Positions 7,992 to 47,382 of a DNA stretch of 60,167 nt are shown here, piece by piece (within the stretch, counting starts at the first letter, position 1; every line of letters starts with the position of its first letter). The position numbers and the translations under genes are program-made. A model generated the notes under the pieces. The model was not told where the DNA came from. It worked only from the letters and a program-made list of their open reading frames with translations, and ran no database searches. Location of the stretch: assembly GCA_028707005.1 (NCBI GenBank), contig JAQTVB010000004.1:1-60167 (forward strand). The letters are read 5' to 3'. Origin of the DNA: Patescibacteria group bacterium. GTDB lineage: Bacteria; Patescibacteriota; Patescibacteriia; Patescibacteriales; GWC2-42-12.

Positions 7992-8053
7992 TGATTGTTA
8001 AACTGGTTTTAAACTATATCATATATCCGGGCATAATATCAATAGGATATAGG

Positions 8054-8090
8054 AGCGAGTGAGCGGAATCGAACCGCCGTCTCAAGCTTG
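8054..8090 (-). pseudogene. Duplicated 3' half of tRNA-Gly(CCC)
   Basis: These 37 bases are identical to 8175-8211, the 3' half of the intact tRNA-Gly(CCC) next door, and stop exactly in the anticodon loop. A GC-rich palindromic spacer (8091-8113) follows in place of the 5' half. No matching 5' half is present, so it cannot form a tRNA on its own. Confidence 0.85.
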
Positions 8091-8113
8091 CCTGCCCGCC
8101 AGCGCTTCGCATG

Positions 8114-8298
8114 AGCGGGATACGAGAATCGGACTCGCGTTTTCTGCTTGCCGCGCCCGCCTGCGCTTCGTTTGAGCGAGTGAGCGGAATCGAACCGCCG
8201 TCTCAAGCTTGGGAAGCTTGCATAATAACCATTATACTACACTCGCGCAGGCGAAGCGGGCGGGGGAAGCAGATGTACTACCATTGTACTAATCCCGC
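8114..8298 (-). pseudogene. tRNA-Gly(CCC) interrupted in the anticodon by 114 bases
   Basis: On the minus strand a 34-base 5' half (8265-8298) and a 37-base 3' half (8114-8150) together make a complete 71-base cloverleaf: acceptor GCGGGAT/ATCCCGC, D arm GTAC/GTAC, anticodon arm TCTGC-TTCCCAA-GCAGA, and T arm GCGAG/CTCGT. The discriminator base is U, as expected for Gly. Between anticodon bases 35 and 36 lies a 114-base insert that contains a second, intact tRNA-Gly(CCC) flanked by GC-rich palindromic sequence. Either the gene is dead or the insert is removed from the RNA; the sequence alone does not decide. Confidence 0.8.
8175..8246 (-). tRNA. tRNA-Gly(CCC), nested inside an interrupted tRNA-Gly
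   Basis: The minus strand gives acceptor GCGAGTG/CACTCGC, anticodon arm CAAGC-TTCCCAA-GCTTG with anticodon CCC, T loop TTCGATT and discriminator U. It is intact over 72 bases, with no encoded CCA. It sits within the anticodon loop of another tRNA-Gly, between GC-rich sequences at 8151-8174 and 8247-8264. Confidence 0.92.
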
Positions 8299-8395: not shown

Positions 8396-10003
8396 ATGGC
8401 AAGGCAAAGTCAAATTCTGGCGCAACCAATAATATTCTTTCTGATATTACTGCTGGCTCAAATAGCCGGTGGTTTTGTTTACGCGGCAGAGAGCCAAGCG
8501 CCAGCGGAAAATCGATATTATATGAACATCAATAAAGCGACGGCGGATAAAGGTTATGCCATCAAGGCTTTTGACGGCCAGGTTAATCTTAGTTTGCCCA
8601 AAGGCGCGGTTAAAGACGCCAGCGGCGTGGAAATCAGCAAGGTGGACGAGGCCATGGGTCTGCCGTGGCAGCTTAACAAATTAAGCGGTATTTTTCAATT
8701 TGAATTTTTAAACAAAGCGGCTTATGACGGAAAAAAATCGCTAATTATAGAAATAAAATATCATCAAAACTCAAATTATTATAAGCAAATTTATTTCTAT
8801 GATAAAAATTACGCCTCCTGGCGGCCGCTGGTTTGTCAAGATCTTTTTAATAAGAGCGCCGTAAGATGCGCGATTAATTTTGATTTTGCCAGATTGGCGG
8901 TTTTTGACAATCCCAACGCCCTGGTGGTCGGCAAGGCCAGCTGGTATAGCTATAAAAAGGGCAATTTTACGGCCTCGCCGGATTTTCCCAAAGGCTCAAA
9001 ATTGCGAGTTTATAATTTGGACAATGGCAAATCAGTGGACGTGGTGGTTAATGATTTTGGGCCGGAAAGAAAATTGTTTCCCGATCGGGTGGTTGATTTG
9101 GAGAAAACCGCTTTTCAAAAAATTTCCAGCGTAAAAAAGGGCACGATAAAAATCAGAGTTGAGCCGCTCGTTATCGCCAAGAAGACCGGCCGGTCTTTGG
9201 GCCTAAGCGATTTTGGAGCAAAGAGCGAGCCGGCAGTGACGGCTAAATCAGCCGTTTTAATAAATGAATTTACCGGAGAGATTCTCTGGCAGAAAAACGC
9301 CACTAGCACCTTGCCCTTGGCCAGCCTTACTAAGCTCGTGGCCATCAAAGTTTTTATAGATACCAGGCCGAGTTTGAATAAAGTCGTGGCGTATAGCGCG
9401 CGGGACGAAGAATATAATTATGAGTATGTTGACAATAAATGGGAGTCGGCCAGGCTGAAATTGGCGGACGGCGAGACTTTAACCGCGGAAGATTTGCTTT
9501 ATGCGGCCCTGGTTGGCTCGGCCAATAACGCGATAGAGACTTTAGTGCGCACCAGCGGTTTGGCTCGCGCCGATTTTATCAAAGCCATGAATGAAGCGGC
9601 GGCCGGCTGGGGCGCTTCGTCAACTCATTTTATTGAACCGACCGGGCTGTCGCCGGAAAACGTGAGTTCGGCGCTGGATTATGCTATAATAAGTAAAGAG
9701 GTTTATGCCAATCCGATCGTCCAGAAAGCCAGCACCATGCACAAGTATAAATTTTCCACTATCAGCAGCAAAAAAGTTCATACCATAACCAATACCGACG
9801 CGCTCTTGGCGGTGAGCGATTTGAATATCACCGGCTCCAAGACCGGTTATCTTAATGAAGCCGGGTATTGTTTAATGGCCAGGTCGGGGAATGATAAGAT
9901 CGGGCAGGTGATCGCCGTTATCATGGGAGCCGACAGCCGCGACAAAAGCTTTGATGAGACCGAAGAGCTTTTGAAGTATGGATTGAAAACAATAAAACAA
10001 TAA
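8396..10003 (+). CDS. Fusion of RlpA-like double-psi barrel and D-Ala-D-Ala carboxypeptidase
   Basis: 535 residues. A signal peptide (IIFFLILLLAQIAGGFVYAA) sends the protein out of the cell. Residues about 175-255 are an RlpA-like double-psi beta-barrel (VVGKASWYSYKKGNF..., VVVNDFGPERKLFPDRVVDL). The C-terminal half is a serine peptidase of family S11 (DacA-like), which trims the terminal D-Ala of peptidoglycan stem peptides. Its three motifs are present: SxxK in LASLTKL, SxN in GSANNAIE, and KTG in TGSKTGYLNE. TATAAT at 8381-8386 ends only 9 bases before the ATG, so the mRNA may be nearly leaderless. The barrel may bind or act on glycan strands, but its catalytic residues cannot be confirmed by eye. 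Confidence 0.85.
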   Translation: MARQSQILAQPIIFFLILLLAQIAGGFVYAAESQAPAENRYYMNINKATADKGYAIKAFDGQVNLSLPKGAVKDASGVEISKVDEAMGLPWQLNKLSGIFQFEFLNKAAYDGKKSLIIEIKYHQNSNYYKQIYFYDKNYASWRPLVCQDLFNKSAVRCAINFDFARLAVFDNPNALVVGKASWYSYKKGNFTASPDFPKGSKLRVYNLDNGKSVDVVVNDFGPERKLFPDRVVDLEKTAFQKISSVKKGTIKIRVEPLVIAKKTGRSLGLSDFGAKSEPAVTAKSAVLINEFTGEILWQKNATSTLPLASLTKLVAIKVFIDTRPSLNKVVAYSARDEEYNYEYVDNKWESARLKLADGETLTAEDLLYAALVGSANNAIETLVRTSGLARADFIKAMNEAAAGWGASSTHFIEPTGLSPENVSSALDYAIISKEVYANPIVQKASTMHKYKFSTISSKKVHTITNTDALLAVSDLNITGSKTGYLNEAGYCLMARSGNDKIGQVIAVIMGADSRDKSFDETEELLKYGLKTIKQ

Positions 10004-24345: not shown

Positions 24346-25092
24346 ATGAGGCAGGGAGGGCTTCATCGTAATTCGCAAAAACGATTTTATAATCGGGATT
24401 ATATTTATTTCCTTACCGCGGTAACGGAGCGCAGGCGGCCGTATTTTCAAGAAGAATTGTTTTGCGAATTATTCATGGAGAATTTGCGATTATGTAAAAA
24501 ATTAAAAAAATTTTTGTTGTATGGGTTTGTTATCATTCCGGACCATGTTCATTTGATGTTAAAACCGGACGGCCGGTATAATATTTCGGAAATAATGCAT
24601 AATTTAAAGAGGACAACATCGTTGCAAATAAATTATTTGATAAATGATGATGTCCCTGTTATAAATGAAGGCGAGGATATATATCCTCGCCTTCATGATG
24701 AATATGAAAATTTTTCAAATATTATTAACAATCATAATGGGAAAATAAAACAATACAAAAATTTATTCATCAAAAAACACGGCGAGGATATATATCCTCG
24801 CCTTCATGATGAATATGAAAATTTTTCAAATATTATTAACAATCATAATGGGAAAATAAAACAATACAAAAATTTATTCATCAAAAAACACGGTCCGAAT
24901 CAATCGGCAATACCCGGATTCCGTTGGCAACAATCTTTTCATGACCATGTTATCCGCAACGATAAAGATTTTTATAAACATTTGAATTATATCGCCTTAA
25001 ATTGCGTTAAACATCGTCTCTGCGAAAACGAGAAAAATTACCGATGGTCATTCCTGAATAAAGAGTTTAATTTTTTAATAGACGATTTTTAA
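24346..25092 (+). CDS. REP-associated tyrosine transposase (Y1/HUH) with internal duplication
   Basis: 248 residues of the IS200-like, REP-associated family. The HUH metal-binding motif is PDHVHLML near residue 68, and the likely catalytic Tyr is in NDKDFYKHLNYI near residue 213. Such enzymes cut single-stranded DNA next to short palindromes. In the middle, a 37-residue unit beginning GEDIYPRLHDEYENF is repeated twice in a row, exactly, and each unit begins with the palindrome GGCGAGGATATATATCCTCG(CC). The same palindrome arms form the terminator after the gene. The duplication enlarges a linker between HUH and Tyr regions; whether the enzyme is active is unclear. Confidence 0.88.
   Translation: MRQGGLHRNSQKRFYNRDYIYFLTAVTERRRPYFQEELFCELFMENLRLCKKLKKFLLYGFVIIPDHVHLMLKPDGRYNISEIMHNLKRTTSLQINYLINDDVPVINEGEDIYPRLHDEYENFSNIINNHNGKIKQYKNLFIKKHGEDIYPRLHDEYENFSNIINNHNGKIKQYKNLFIKKHGPNQSAIPGFRWQQSFHDHVIRNDKDFYKHLNYIALNCVKHRLCENEKNYRWSFLNKEFNFLIDDF
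24670..24891. repeat. Exact 111-bp tandem duplication starting with a palindrome
   Basis: Bases 24670-24780 and 24781-24891 are identical as read by eye. Each starts with a 22-base perfect palindrome with arms GGCGAGGA and TCCTCGCC around TATATA. In the first unit the arms extend to GAAGGCGAGGA on the left, matching the terminator at 25113-25140. The unit is a multiple of three, so the frame is kept. Confidence 0.93.
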
Positions 25093-43276: not shown

Positions 43277-43398
43277 AGATTCCCGCCGGAATTTATCCCG
43301 TTGCATAACGGGGCGGGAATGACAAAATATAATCCCCCTTACCCTGCCCGCTCGTGCCTCGCAGTGGCAGGCAGGCCCCTTTGTCAAGGGGGCAAAAT
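43277..43398. repeat. Two palindromic elements before apt
   Basis: First an ATTCCCGCC...GGCGGGAAT palindrome (43277-43319), then CCCCCTT ... AAGGGGG enclosing CCTGCCCGCTCGTGCCTCGC (43331-43398). The second is nearly the same as a piece found in frame inside murC at 46711-46775. Confidence 0.75.
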
Positions 43399-45894: not shown

Positions 45895-47382
45895 ATGGAT
45901 TTATCAAAAATAAAAAAAATTTATCTGATCGGCGTAAAAGGCGTGGGTATGACCATGCTGGGGCAGTATTTGGCTGCGCGCGGCCTGGAAGTGAGCGGTT
46001 CGGATGGGCCGGAAAAGTACATGACTGACGCGGTGCTGGCCAAATGCGGCATCAGGGTGATAGAAAAGTTTGACGCTGAAAACATGCCGGCCGACGCCGA
46101 TTTGATAATTTATTCCACGGCCTATAATGCCGAGAGCAACGTGGAAGTGGCCGCCGCTTTGGCCGGAAAAATAAAAGTTTTGACTTACGCCCAGGCTTTG
46201 GGCGAGGTGTTTAATCAAAAATACGGCATTGCCGTAGTGGGTTCTCATGGAAAAACCACGACCACGGCCTGGCTCGGCTATGTCATGGAACGGTCCGGAT
46301 TGAAGCCGGGCGTGATGGCGGGCGCAAGCGTGCCGCAGCTGGGTGGCTGCGCTGTCGCCGGCGGCTCTGAATACTTAGTTATTGAAGCCGATGAGTATCA
46401 GAATAAGCTGGCTTATTATTTGCCCAAGGCCGTGCTGTTGAATAATATTGATTATGACCATCCGGATTTTTTTCCGACTACGGCCGATTATGAAAATGCT
46501 TTCATAGAATTCATAAAAAAAATACCAGCTAAAGGTTTTTTAGTGGCGAATTTCGATGATCCGGCTGTAAGAAAGATCGCCCAGGTTAACTGCCGCGGCA
46601 AGGTGATTACTTATGCCATCAATGAAGCGGCCGATTACGTTGCCTATGATTTACAGGCGCATGATGGCAAACAATATTTTAAAGTAAAATTTGGGGTGGA
46701 AGAGGAAGAAAATCCCCCTAGCCCTGCCCGCTCGTGCCTCGCAGTGGCAGGCGGGCCCCTTTATCAAGGGGGTAAAAATACAGGGGGCAGGGCAGATGAA
46801 CTGGGTGATTTCGTGATTCAGCTGGCCGGCCGGCATAACGTATCTAACGCGCTGGCCGTGATCGCCACGAGCGTTGAATTGAACATTGAATTATTCAAGA
46901 TCAGAAAATATTTGGCAGAATTCAGCGGCACGACGCGCCGATTGCAAGCGCTTGGCGAGTTTCACGGCGCTACCATTATTGACGATTACGCCCATCATCC
47001 CACGGAAATCAAGGCGACGATCAGCGCTTTGCGGCAAAAATACGGCAACCGCAAGCTGATAGTTGTTTTCCATCCGCACACTTTCAGCCGCACCAAGGCT
47101 TTATTCAATGATTTTCTGAAGAGCTTTTCCGGCGCGGACGAATTGGTTATTCTGGATATTTACGGATCGGCGCGGGAACAGCAAGGCGGAGTGAGCAGCC
47201 GGGAATTGGTTGATCAATTAAAAATTAAAAATTGCGAATTACGAATTAATCAAGAGGTAAGATATATTCCAACTTTGAAACAATGCGAAGAGTATCTGCG
47301 GGAACATATTGTAAGAGATGATGTTGTGGCGCTTCTGGGCGCGGGGGATATTTTTAGGGTGGGGGAGAAGCTGGTGAAATAA
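45895..47382 (+). CDS. murC: UDP-MurNAc-L-alanine ligase MurC, with repeat insertions
   Basis: 495 residues from the ATG at 45895 (MDLSKIKKIYLIGVKGVGMT); an ATG five codons upstream overlaps a palindrome. MurC adds L-Ala to UDP-MurNAc using ATP. Motifs: GVKGVGMTMLGQYL, the ATP loop GSHGKTTTTAWLG, EADEYQNKLAYY, DYDHPDFFP, the HNVSNALA site and DDYAHHPTEIKAT. Two parts are extra: a 30-residue stretch near residues 272-301 (NPPSPARSCLAVAGGPLYQG...), and LKIKNCELRINQ near 441-452. Both come from dispersed repeats inserted in frame. Confidence 0.94.
   Translation: MDLSKIKKIYLIGVKGVGMTMLGQYLAARGLEVSGSDGPEKYMTDAVLAKCGIRVIEKFDAENMPADADLIIYSTAYNAESNVEVAAALAGKIKVLTYAQALGEVFNQKYGIAVVGSHGKTTTTAWLGYVMERSGLKPGVMAGASVPQLGGCAVAGGSEYLVIEADEYQNKLAYYLPKAVLLNNIDYDHPDFFPTTADYENAFIEFIKKIPAKGFLVANFDDPAVRKIAQVNCRGKVITYAINEAADYVAYDLQAHDGKQYFKVKFGVEEEENPPSPARSCLAVAGGPLYQGGKNTGGRADELGDFVIQLAGRHNVSNALAVIATSVELNIELFKIRKYLAEFSGTTRRLQALGEFHGATIIDDYAHHPTEIKATISALRQKYGNRKLIVVFHPHTFSRTKALFNDFLKSFSGADELVILDIYGSAREQQGGVSSRELVDQLKIKNCELRINQEVRYIPTLKQCEEYLREHIVRDDVVALLGAGDIFRVGEKLVK
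46711..46775. repeat. Intragenic GC palindromic element in murC
   Basis: CCCCCTA...AAGGGGG around CCTGCCCGCTCGTGCCTCGC. Over about 65 bases it matches the intergenic element at 43331-43398 with only a few differences, which shows that the same element sits both between and inside genes. Confidence 0.88.
47215..47252. repeat. Intragenic AATTACGAATT repeat in murC
   Basis: CAATTAAAAATTAAAAATTG and the following CGAATTACGAATTAATC are read as LKIKNCELRINQ, close to the KNYELKITN peptide in MurG and MiaB. Confidence 0.75.

Follow-up and report, generated by a model that had tools for sequence, protein, structure and literature searches.

Genes for tRNAs are commonly seen as fixed housekeeping genes or as passive landing sites. 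Phages, genomic islands, and tycheposons target tRNA genes, often at the anticodon loop, and supply replacement tRNA sequence, and group I introns insert in the anticodon loops of bacterial tRNAs. Short palindromes of the REP/REPIN type occur in many copies per genome, and HUH/Y1 enzymes are believed to mobilize them in the form of single-stranded hairpins (PMC8266576, PMC3733652). Such single-strand transposases act on folded hairpin DNA (PMC8266576). In archaea, complementary leaders have been described for a tri-split tRNA, as has the movement of introns between tRNAs (PMC10714607 and references therein). Here we describe a locus in the genome of a very small, uncultured Patescibacteria (CPR) bacterium at which one complete tRNA-Gly(CCC) gene lies within the anticodon loop of another. 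Searches of the open-licence literature brought up no account of tRNA genes nested in this way. The locus is probably a nest built by a mobile hairpin element.

The stretch of DNA analyzed (the window) is 60,167 nucleotides long and belongs to a 1.08-Mb draft assembly of 43 contigs, 96% complete. Its genome is denoted G000, other G numbers denote relatives, and L numbers denote fetched loci.

Anatomy of the nest

The original prediction for this DNA, an intact tRNA-Gly inside another tRNA-Gly, was borne out. Both ARAGORN and Rfam detect the inner tRNA alone at the window locus and not the outer one, and the outer halves, once joined, give an uninterrupted tRNA-Gly(CCC) of 71-72 nt that forms a cloverleaf in which the acceptor, anticodon, and T stems are all complete (Table 1). 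The inner and outer tRNAs share 66% identity. The spacers had been described as GC-rich palindromes, and the arms are indeed complementary; the 251-nt RNA of the nest folds at -103.3 kcal/mol (z -2.4). The predicted split by 114 bases agrees with an insert of 114 nt when the C found on both sides is counted once, but the same C makes the position of the break ambiguous, so that it is either the predicted 35/36 or 36/37. Likewise, the copy of the inner 3′ half is exact and begins at the same loop point, but it is 38 nt long rather than 37. The second palindromic arm, read together with the outer acceptor end, gives CCCGCTCATGCGAAGCGCTGGCGGG-CAGG.

Table 1. Features of the nest and related features in the window
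Feature	Position	Strand	Evidence or remark
Whole nest, tRNA-Gly(CCC) within tRNA-Gly(CCC)	8298-8053	minus	copy of the inner 3′ half included
Outer tRNA-Gly(CCC) 5′ half, GCGGGATTAGTACAATGGTAGTACATCTGCTTCC(C), ending CTGCTTCC	8264..8298	(-)	BLAST of joined outer 100% over 1-35; intact in G003/G004
Left G+C-rich arm CCGCCCGCTTCGCCTGC (also read CCCGCCCGCTTCGCCTGC)	8247..8263	(-)	17/18 nt as in G005 nest, ambiguous C included
Inner tRNA-Gly(CCC), complete	8174..8246	(-)	ARAGORN and Rfam, 65.7 bits
Right arm AAACGAAGCGCAGGCGGGCGCGG, complement of left arm	8151..8173	(-)	sequence and fold
Outer tRNA-Gly 3′ half, CAAGCAGAAAACGCGAGTCCGATTCTCGTATCCCGC (start CAAGCAGAAAACG)	8115..8150	(-)	BLAST 35-70, 100%
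Second palindromic arm TCATGCGAAGCGCTGGCGGGCAGG (also read ATGCGAAGCGCTGGCGGGCAGG)	8091..8114	(-)	pattern matches; G005 right arm nearly identical
Inner tRNA 3′-half copy, 38 nt, from same loop point	8053..8090	(-)	100% identical to 8174-8211
REP-associated tyrosine (Y1/HUH) transposase, RAYT-type	24346..25092	(+)	NF047646 109.9 bits, cut-off 80; PF01797
Second empty copy of the repeat hairpin below	43333..43392	(+)	sequence search
Empty non-tRNA repeat hairpin, ..CTCGTGCC^TCGCAGTGG.. (GTGCC^TCGCAGTGG)	46714..46773	(+)	filled copies elsewhere in genome

The same locus in relatives and the origin of the inner tRNA

The locus precedes a D-Ala-D-Ala carboxypeptidase-like gene (8396-10003). In two genomes of the same genus (G003 and G004), one intact tRNA-Gly(CCC) is found at this locus, sharing 97% identity with the rejoined outer tRNA of the window, and the exact empty site, CTGCTTCC-CAAGCAG, is present where the window and G005 have an insert. 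The window nest is therefore derived from a G003/G004-like state by insertion, with zero target bases removed. The alternative that sister genomes hold both tRNAs intact side by side does not apply; G003 and G004 have the outer tRNA only, and it is intact.

In G005, which belongs to a different genus, this tRNA likewise carries an insert of the same kind, and at the identical base. Compared with the window, the left arm of G005 is the same at 17 of 18 nt and the outer tRNAs are 96% identical, whereas the inner tRNAs are merely 75% identical. Either two insertions took place at one base, or the locus was exchanged and its inner part replaced. The inner tRNA of the window shares 97% identity with an ordinary, unnested tRNA-Gly(CCC) of another family (found in G069 and others) and at most 84% with its best match in its own genus, and it is thus probably foreign, as judged from sequence similarity.

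A class of nests across the phylum

We scanned 84,980 genomes for two tRNA D-arms too close for neighbouring genes, a pattern that favours tRNA-Gly/Pro types, and obtained 19 loci, 18 of which are in Patescibacteria. Nearly all of these 18 are nested or partly nested tRNA-Gly(CCC) or tRNA-Pro, a few being cut off or without one outer half. The match in Lachnoclostridium (L174) was read as not a tRNA nest. A T-arm spacing pattern matched 101 of 381 genomes in the class and 90 of 380 in the phylum (upper bounds, chance matches included; about ten and about seven genomes, respectively, for the reversed pattern), counts that cover genomes within the class and the phylum and from which a restriction to the phylum is not to be read. 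Five T-arm matches (L189, L193, L195, L196, and L199) were rejected as chance. Reading of ~140 loci gave ~60-80 real nests, and tRNA halves parted by similar GC palindromes, which had been proposed as something to search for in other genomes, are thus found phylum-wide.

Among 262 intact tRNAs in the fetched loci, 52 lie between acceptor halves that are complementary and belong to a second tRNA, compared with 2.6 (at most 6) when left and right flanks were swapped between loci; the 262 were chosen by a related spacing pattern, and the ratio is evidence of pairing, not of prevalence. Another 23 tRNAs are armed without a matched acceptor. A T-arm is present in the right flank of 19 of these 23, and most of the others have outer remnants by eye. 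The isotypes found nested are Gly, Pro, Arg, Thr, Ala, Val, Leu, Ile, Met, Glu, and Asn. Nesting can go deeper: G101 (L149/L170) carries a triple tRNA-Gly(CCC) nest with CCCCGCACCAAA/TTTGGTGCGGGG arms at both levels. G239, G204, and G160 (L205, L213, and L248) have in common one elaborate tRNA-Ile(GAT) nest whose outer 5′ half contains a further palindrome, so that some nests are old or have spread by transfer.

Isotype, break point, and arms

The inner isotype equals that of the nearest intact relative of the outer tRNA in 32 of 37 scored nests (shuffled mean 5.7, maximum 14), where isotypes were assigned by nearest neighbour with the inner tRNA itself excluded from the references. The five exceptions are low-scoring and include at least three false nests. 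Many inner tRNAs are distant from their own outers, and therefore simple self-duplication is not the rule.

Joining the outer halves with free cut points was rejected as overfitting, as arm bases complete false anticodon stems and the anticodons are misleading; in its place, junctions were assessed by reading the loci. The clean junctions are mostly at 35/36, the middle of the 7-nt loop, regardless of isotype (TTCC^CAA in Gly; CTTC^GGA and CTTC^TAA in Arg; TTCG^GGA in Pro; TTTG^TAA in Thr; TTTG^CAA in Ala). A minority of breaks are at 37/38 (Ala(CGC) and Val) or in the D-arm region (Thr in L154/L182 and Pro in L146). The suggested repeat, one that interrupts anticodon loops at a single structural point, is therefore real and phylum-wide, according to both the surveys and the junction reading. 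The competing suggestion, recombination via the shared GCTTCCCAAGC, leaves unexplained the arms as well as the nests of Pro, Arg, Thr, Ala, and Val, which have different loop sequences.

The two arms of a nest pair mutually and often adjoin the tRNA, some pairing up to TGG/CCA, so that arms and acceptor stem make one long helix. Although certain feet are recurrent (CCCCGCACC/GGTGCGGGG and CCCGCC/GGCGGG), arm sequences vary by lineage, and in sequence the arms thus do not make up a single family of homologous repeats. No single motif emerged when a constant tetranucleotide was sought at the arm ends, and GTAG/CGTC is not among the most frequent 4-mers at the arm feet (left TTCA, CTTG, AGAG, and others; right TAAA, CAAG, CAGG, and others). 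A 4-bp CAAG flanks both sides of the insert in L149; no such duplication is present in the window, G005, L150, L201, or L267.

Palindromes and hairpin-loop targets beyond nests

Several dozen CCCGCY..GGCGGG palindromes are found in the 1.08 Mb of the host genome (7 per strand in the reversed control), some of them in coding sequence. Palindromes interrupt remnants of tRNA-Arg (C11:43039) and tRNA-Leu (C12:44047) and D-loops (C22:7195 and C26:7770/7883), and in L192, L216, L284, L291, L295, and L298 the outer halves carry, in a loop (D-arm, T-loop, or anticodon loop), simple palindromes whose feet are like those of the nest arms. A repeat hairpin unrelated to tRNA, of which the window has two empty copies (Table 1), is filled by a second palindrome in its loop at C12:16201, C24:11035, and C6:54461; as the filled hairpins are possibly copies of one composite, they represent at least one insertion event. 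The existence of this hairpin both empty and filled in the loop favours insertion steered by DNA hairpin structure.

Several further loci are worth recording. L042 (G000:C33:16033-16130) was called as a tRNA Asn(att) with a 28-nt "intron"; its anticodon arm is elongated (ATTCATTATTG/CAATAATGAA) and has at its tip a second anticodon-arm-like hairpin, GACGA-TTCCTAG-TCGTC, and it is possibly an anticodon arm within an anticodon arm. L045 (G000:C11:42935-43170) holds two adjacent tRNA-Arg(CCG) genes, one of them weak (46.8 bits), and between them a tRNA-Arg fragment cut by a palindrome between CTCC and CCGGAGC. Palindromes of the CCCGCCGAAGCTTTAGCGCAGGCGGG form are apparently in frame inside coding sequence in G000 (C41:11914-12041, C18:14874, C38:38752, and C13:34414). 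Extra palindromes are present in outer tRNA-Pro halves in L147 (G108:C45) and L183/L187 (Wolfebacteria), for example CCTGCCTGCCGGCAGGCAG in the T-loop. In L040 (G000:C34), L153 (G030:C1), and L165 (G060:C31), palindromes are fused exactly to the 5′ ends of intact tRNA-Gly genes, GGCGGG being common to palindrome and acceptor stem.

Which tRNA works

At least 35 of 58 scored outers are defective in the acceptor, T, or anticodon stem, a lower bound given that the 23 "intact" outers include several false passes from arm bases; this is so even though detection of the scored set needed a nearly intact acceptor stem. Loss can go further: a tRNA-Pro(GGG) is nested in G107, and the congener G108 keeps the inner tRNA intact while the outer 5′ half is gone. 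Neither RtcB (PF01139) nor the tRNA-splicing endonuclease (PF01974) was found in the 96%-complete host genome, in which controls were positive. No ribozyme family was found in the 114-nt insert, for which an Rfam scan gives only tRNA above the gathering score. Because outers decay and both splicing enzymes and a ribozyme match are absent, it is likely that the inner tRNA does the work and that the outer is a pseudogene. That the outer tRNA of the window is still intact is compatible with a young insertion. The host also encodes tRNA-Gly(GCC) and tRNA-Gly(TCC), and for that reason its tRNA with anticodon CCC is probably not strictly essential.

A mobile hairpin model and its alternatives

We propose that the element consists of a G+C-rich inverted repeat (the foot) with a tip that is a simple loop in some copies and an entire tRNA gene in others. 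It would insert, as DNA, at the apex of other hairpins, chiefly in tRNA genes at the anticodon loop of 7 nt, where the usual point would be 35/36 and all target bases would be kept. The target tRNA would thereby be killed, and a cargo tRNA of the same isotype would let the cell survive, being freed by ordinary RNase P and 3′-end processing to serve as a working gene, while the outer halves would decay or gather further palindromes. In the window, an inner tRNA-Gly(CCC) of foreign type has probably replaced a native tRNA-Gly(CCC) in this manner. The wider generalization, that tRNA-tipped hairpins of ~110-130 bp home phylum-wide to the anticodon apex of the same isotype, break and replace the gene, and so cause tRNA genes to turn over by nested replacement, is one that we advance tentatively and judge somewhat less probable than the reading of this single locus.

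We infer transposition at the DNA level by a single-strand enzyme of HUH/Y1 type, with rescue behind the isotype match. The match could come from survival selection, the cargo acting as replacement tRNA, or from homing via the shared anticodon arm. None of the 46 tRNAs of the host is arm-flanked outside a broken tRNA, which counts against the model, since random insertion with rescue predicts some. HUH/Y1 single-strand transposases are candidate movers because such enzymes act on folded hairpins, and the RAYT-type gene of the window (Table 1) offers at most a suggestive tie to the nest. The same open reading frame has a tandem duplication of ~40 residues (GEDIYPRLHDEYENFSNIINNHNGKIKQYKNLFIKKH). 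Y1_Tnp genes are weakly associated with the nest pattern, being present in 67 of 101 genomes that have it vs. 136 of 280 others (odds ratio 2.1, P = 0.002, relatedness ignored), and a third of the nest-pattern genomes have no Y1_Tnp match. Extra 3′ halves without 5′ partners, found in the window, L266, and L192, count against the model in that they resemble local recombination or slippage more closely; they may have arisen later, by recombination of one 3′ half with a homologous one, and that of the window is possibly what is left of a third level of nesting after loss of its 5′ half.

The same tandem repeats of arm and 3′ half could, however, be taken to indicate that no dedicated element exists. 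Palindromes would gather in or near tRNAs, and short-homology recombination, template switching, or DNA uptake would put a tRNA of the same isotype between the arms. In G000 and G030, palindromes directly precede tRNA-Gly genes that are unbroken, which is in keeping with this explanation, as is the ease with which homologous inner and outer 3′ halves would undergo unequal exchange. Nevertheless, we consider it rather unlikely, given that clean junctions at one structural point across many isotypes, together with the exact empty sites of G003 and G004, resemble integration, that the arms pair across the inner tRNA, and that their feet are common to simple palindromes.

A functional outer tRNA is far less probable still. 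The inner tRNA and arms would then be an intron, or RNase P/Z would release arm-paired halves, and the outer tRNA would be joined afterwards. Good stems are kept in the outers of the window, L149, L201, L207, L266, and L267, and complementary arms would keep the halves together, as do the leaders of archaeal split tRNAs. On the other hand, 35 of 58 outers are defective and some lack a half or carry more palindromes, RtcB, the tRNA-splicing endonuclease, and a ribozyme match are absent, and the outer is not needed, as its isotype is that of the inner. For these reasons, the possibility raised originally, that the outer tRNA is spliced and the insert a new type of intron, is not supported. Finally, the repetitive locus in a 43-contig draft might suggest misassembly or a metagenome chimera, the probability of which is close to negligible: the same architecture recurs in many independent assemblies, named public MAGs among them, and G005, of another genus, has it at the corresponding base. 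This recurrence excludes, as a general explanation, the assembly error that had been raised as a concern. The mobile hairpin element is thus the reading that we prefer.

Should it be correct, tRNA genes here seem to be both the cargo and the target of a tiny element that needs its own rescue. It would provide a route for foreign tRNA genes to replace native ones in minimal genomes and would account for the tRNA fragments that have been a puzzle in the annotation of such genomes. It would also offer a natural path to split tRNAs, since removal of the inner tRNA would leave outer halves with complementary arms, as in archaeal split tRNAs. Moreover, structure-directed DNA insertion into hairpin loops becomes directly testable.

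Comparison with known systems

The nests resemble REP/REPIN, TnpA-REP (RAYT), and IS200/IS605 systems in their dispersed, many-copy short palindromes and in the RAYT encoded in the window, but they differ in having a whole tRNA as the tip, anticodon-loop sites of the same isotype, and lineage-variable arms that have no GTAG or CGTC tag next to them. Like integrative elements of tRNA genes, they target a tRNA gene and bring in a replacement tRNA. Those elements, however, extend over kilobases, have a recombinase gene, and duplicate a core site, whereas the nest insert is ~114 nt, encodes no protein, leaves both target halves, and duplicates at most one ambiguous C. A break in or near the anticodon loop and complementary G+C-rich flanks are shared with archaeal tRNA introns and split tRNAs (Nanoarchaeum, Caldivirga, and Thermoproteales), but here splicing enzymes were not found, the insert is a complete tRNA, and most outers are unfoldable. 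Compared with group I introns, known from bacterial tRNA and CPR rRNA genes, the nest insert is too short and has no ribozyme family match. For each of REP/REPIN, tRNA-targeting elements, and archaeal introns or split tRNAs, the nests lack at least one tested defining feature. An inner gene that looks functional within a wrecked outer one points to mobile DNA of a kind not described before, which takes the place of the gene that it interrupts.
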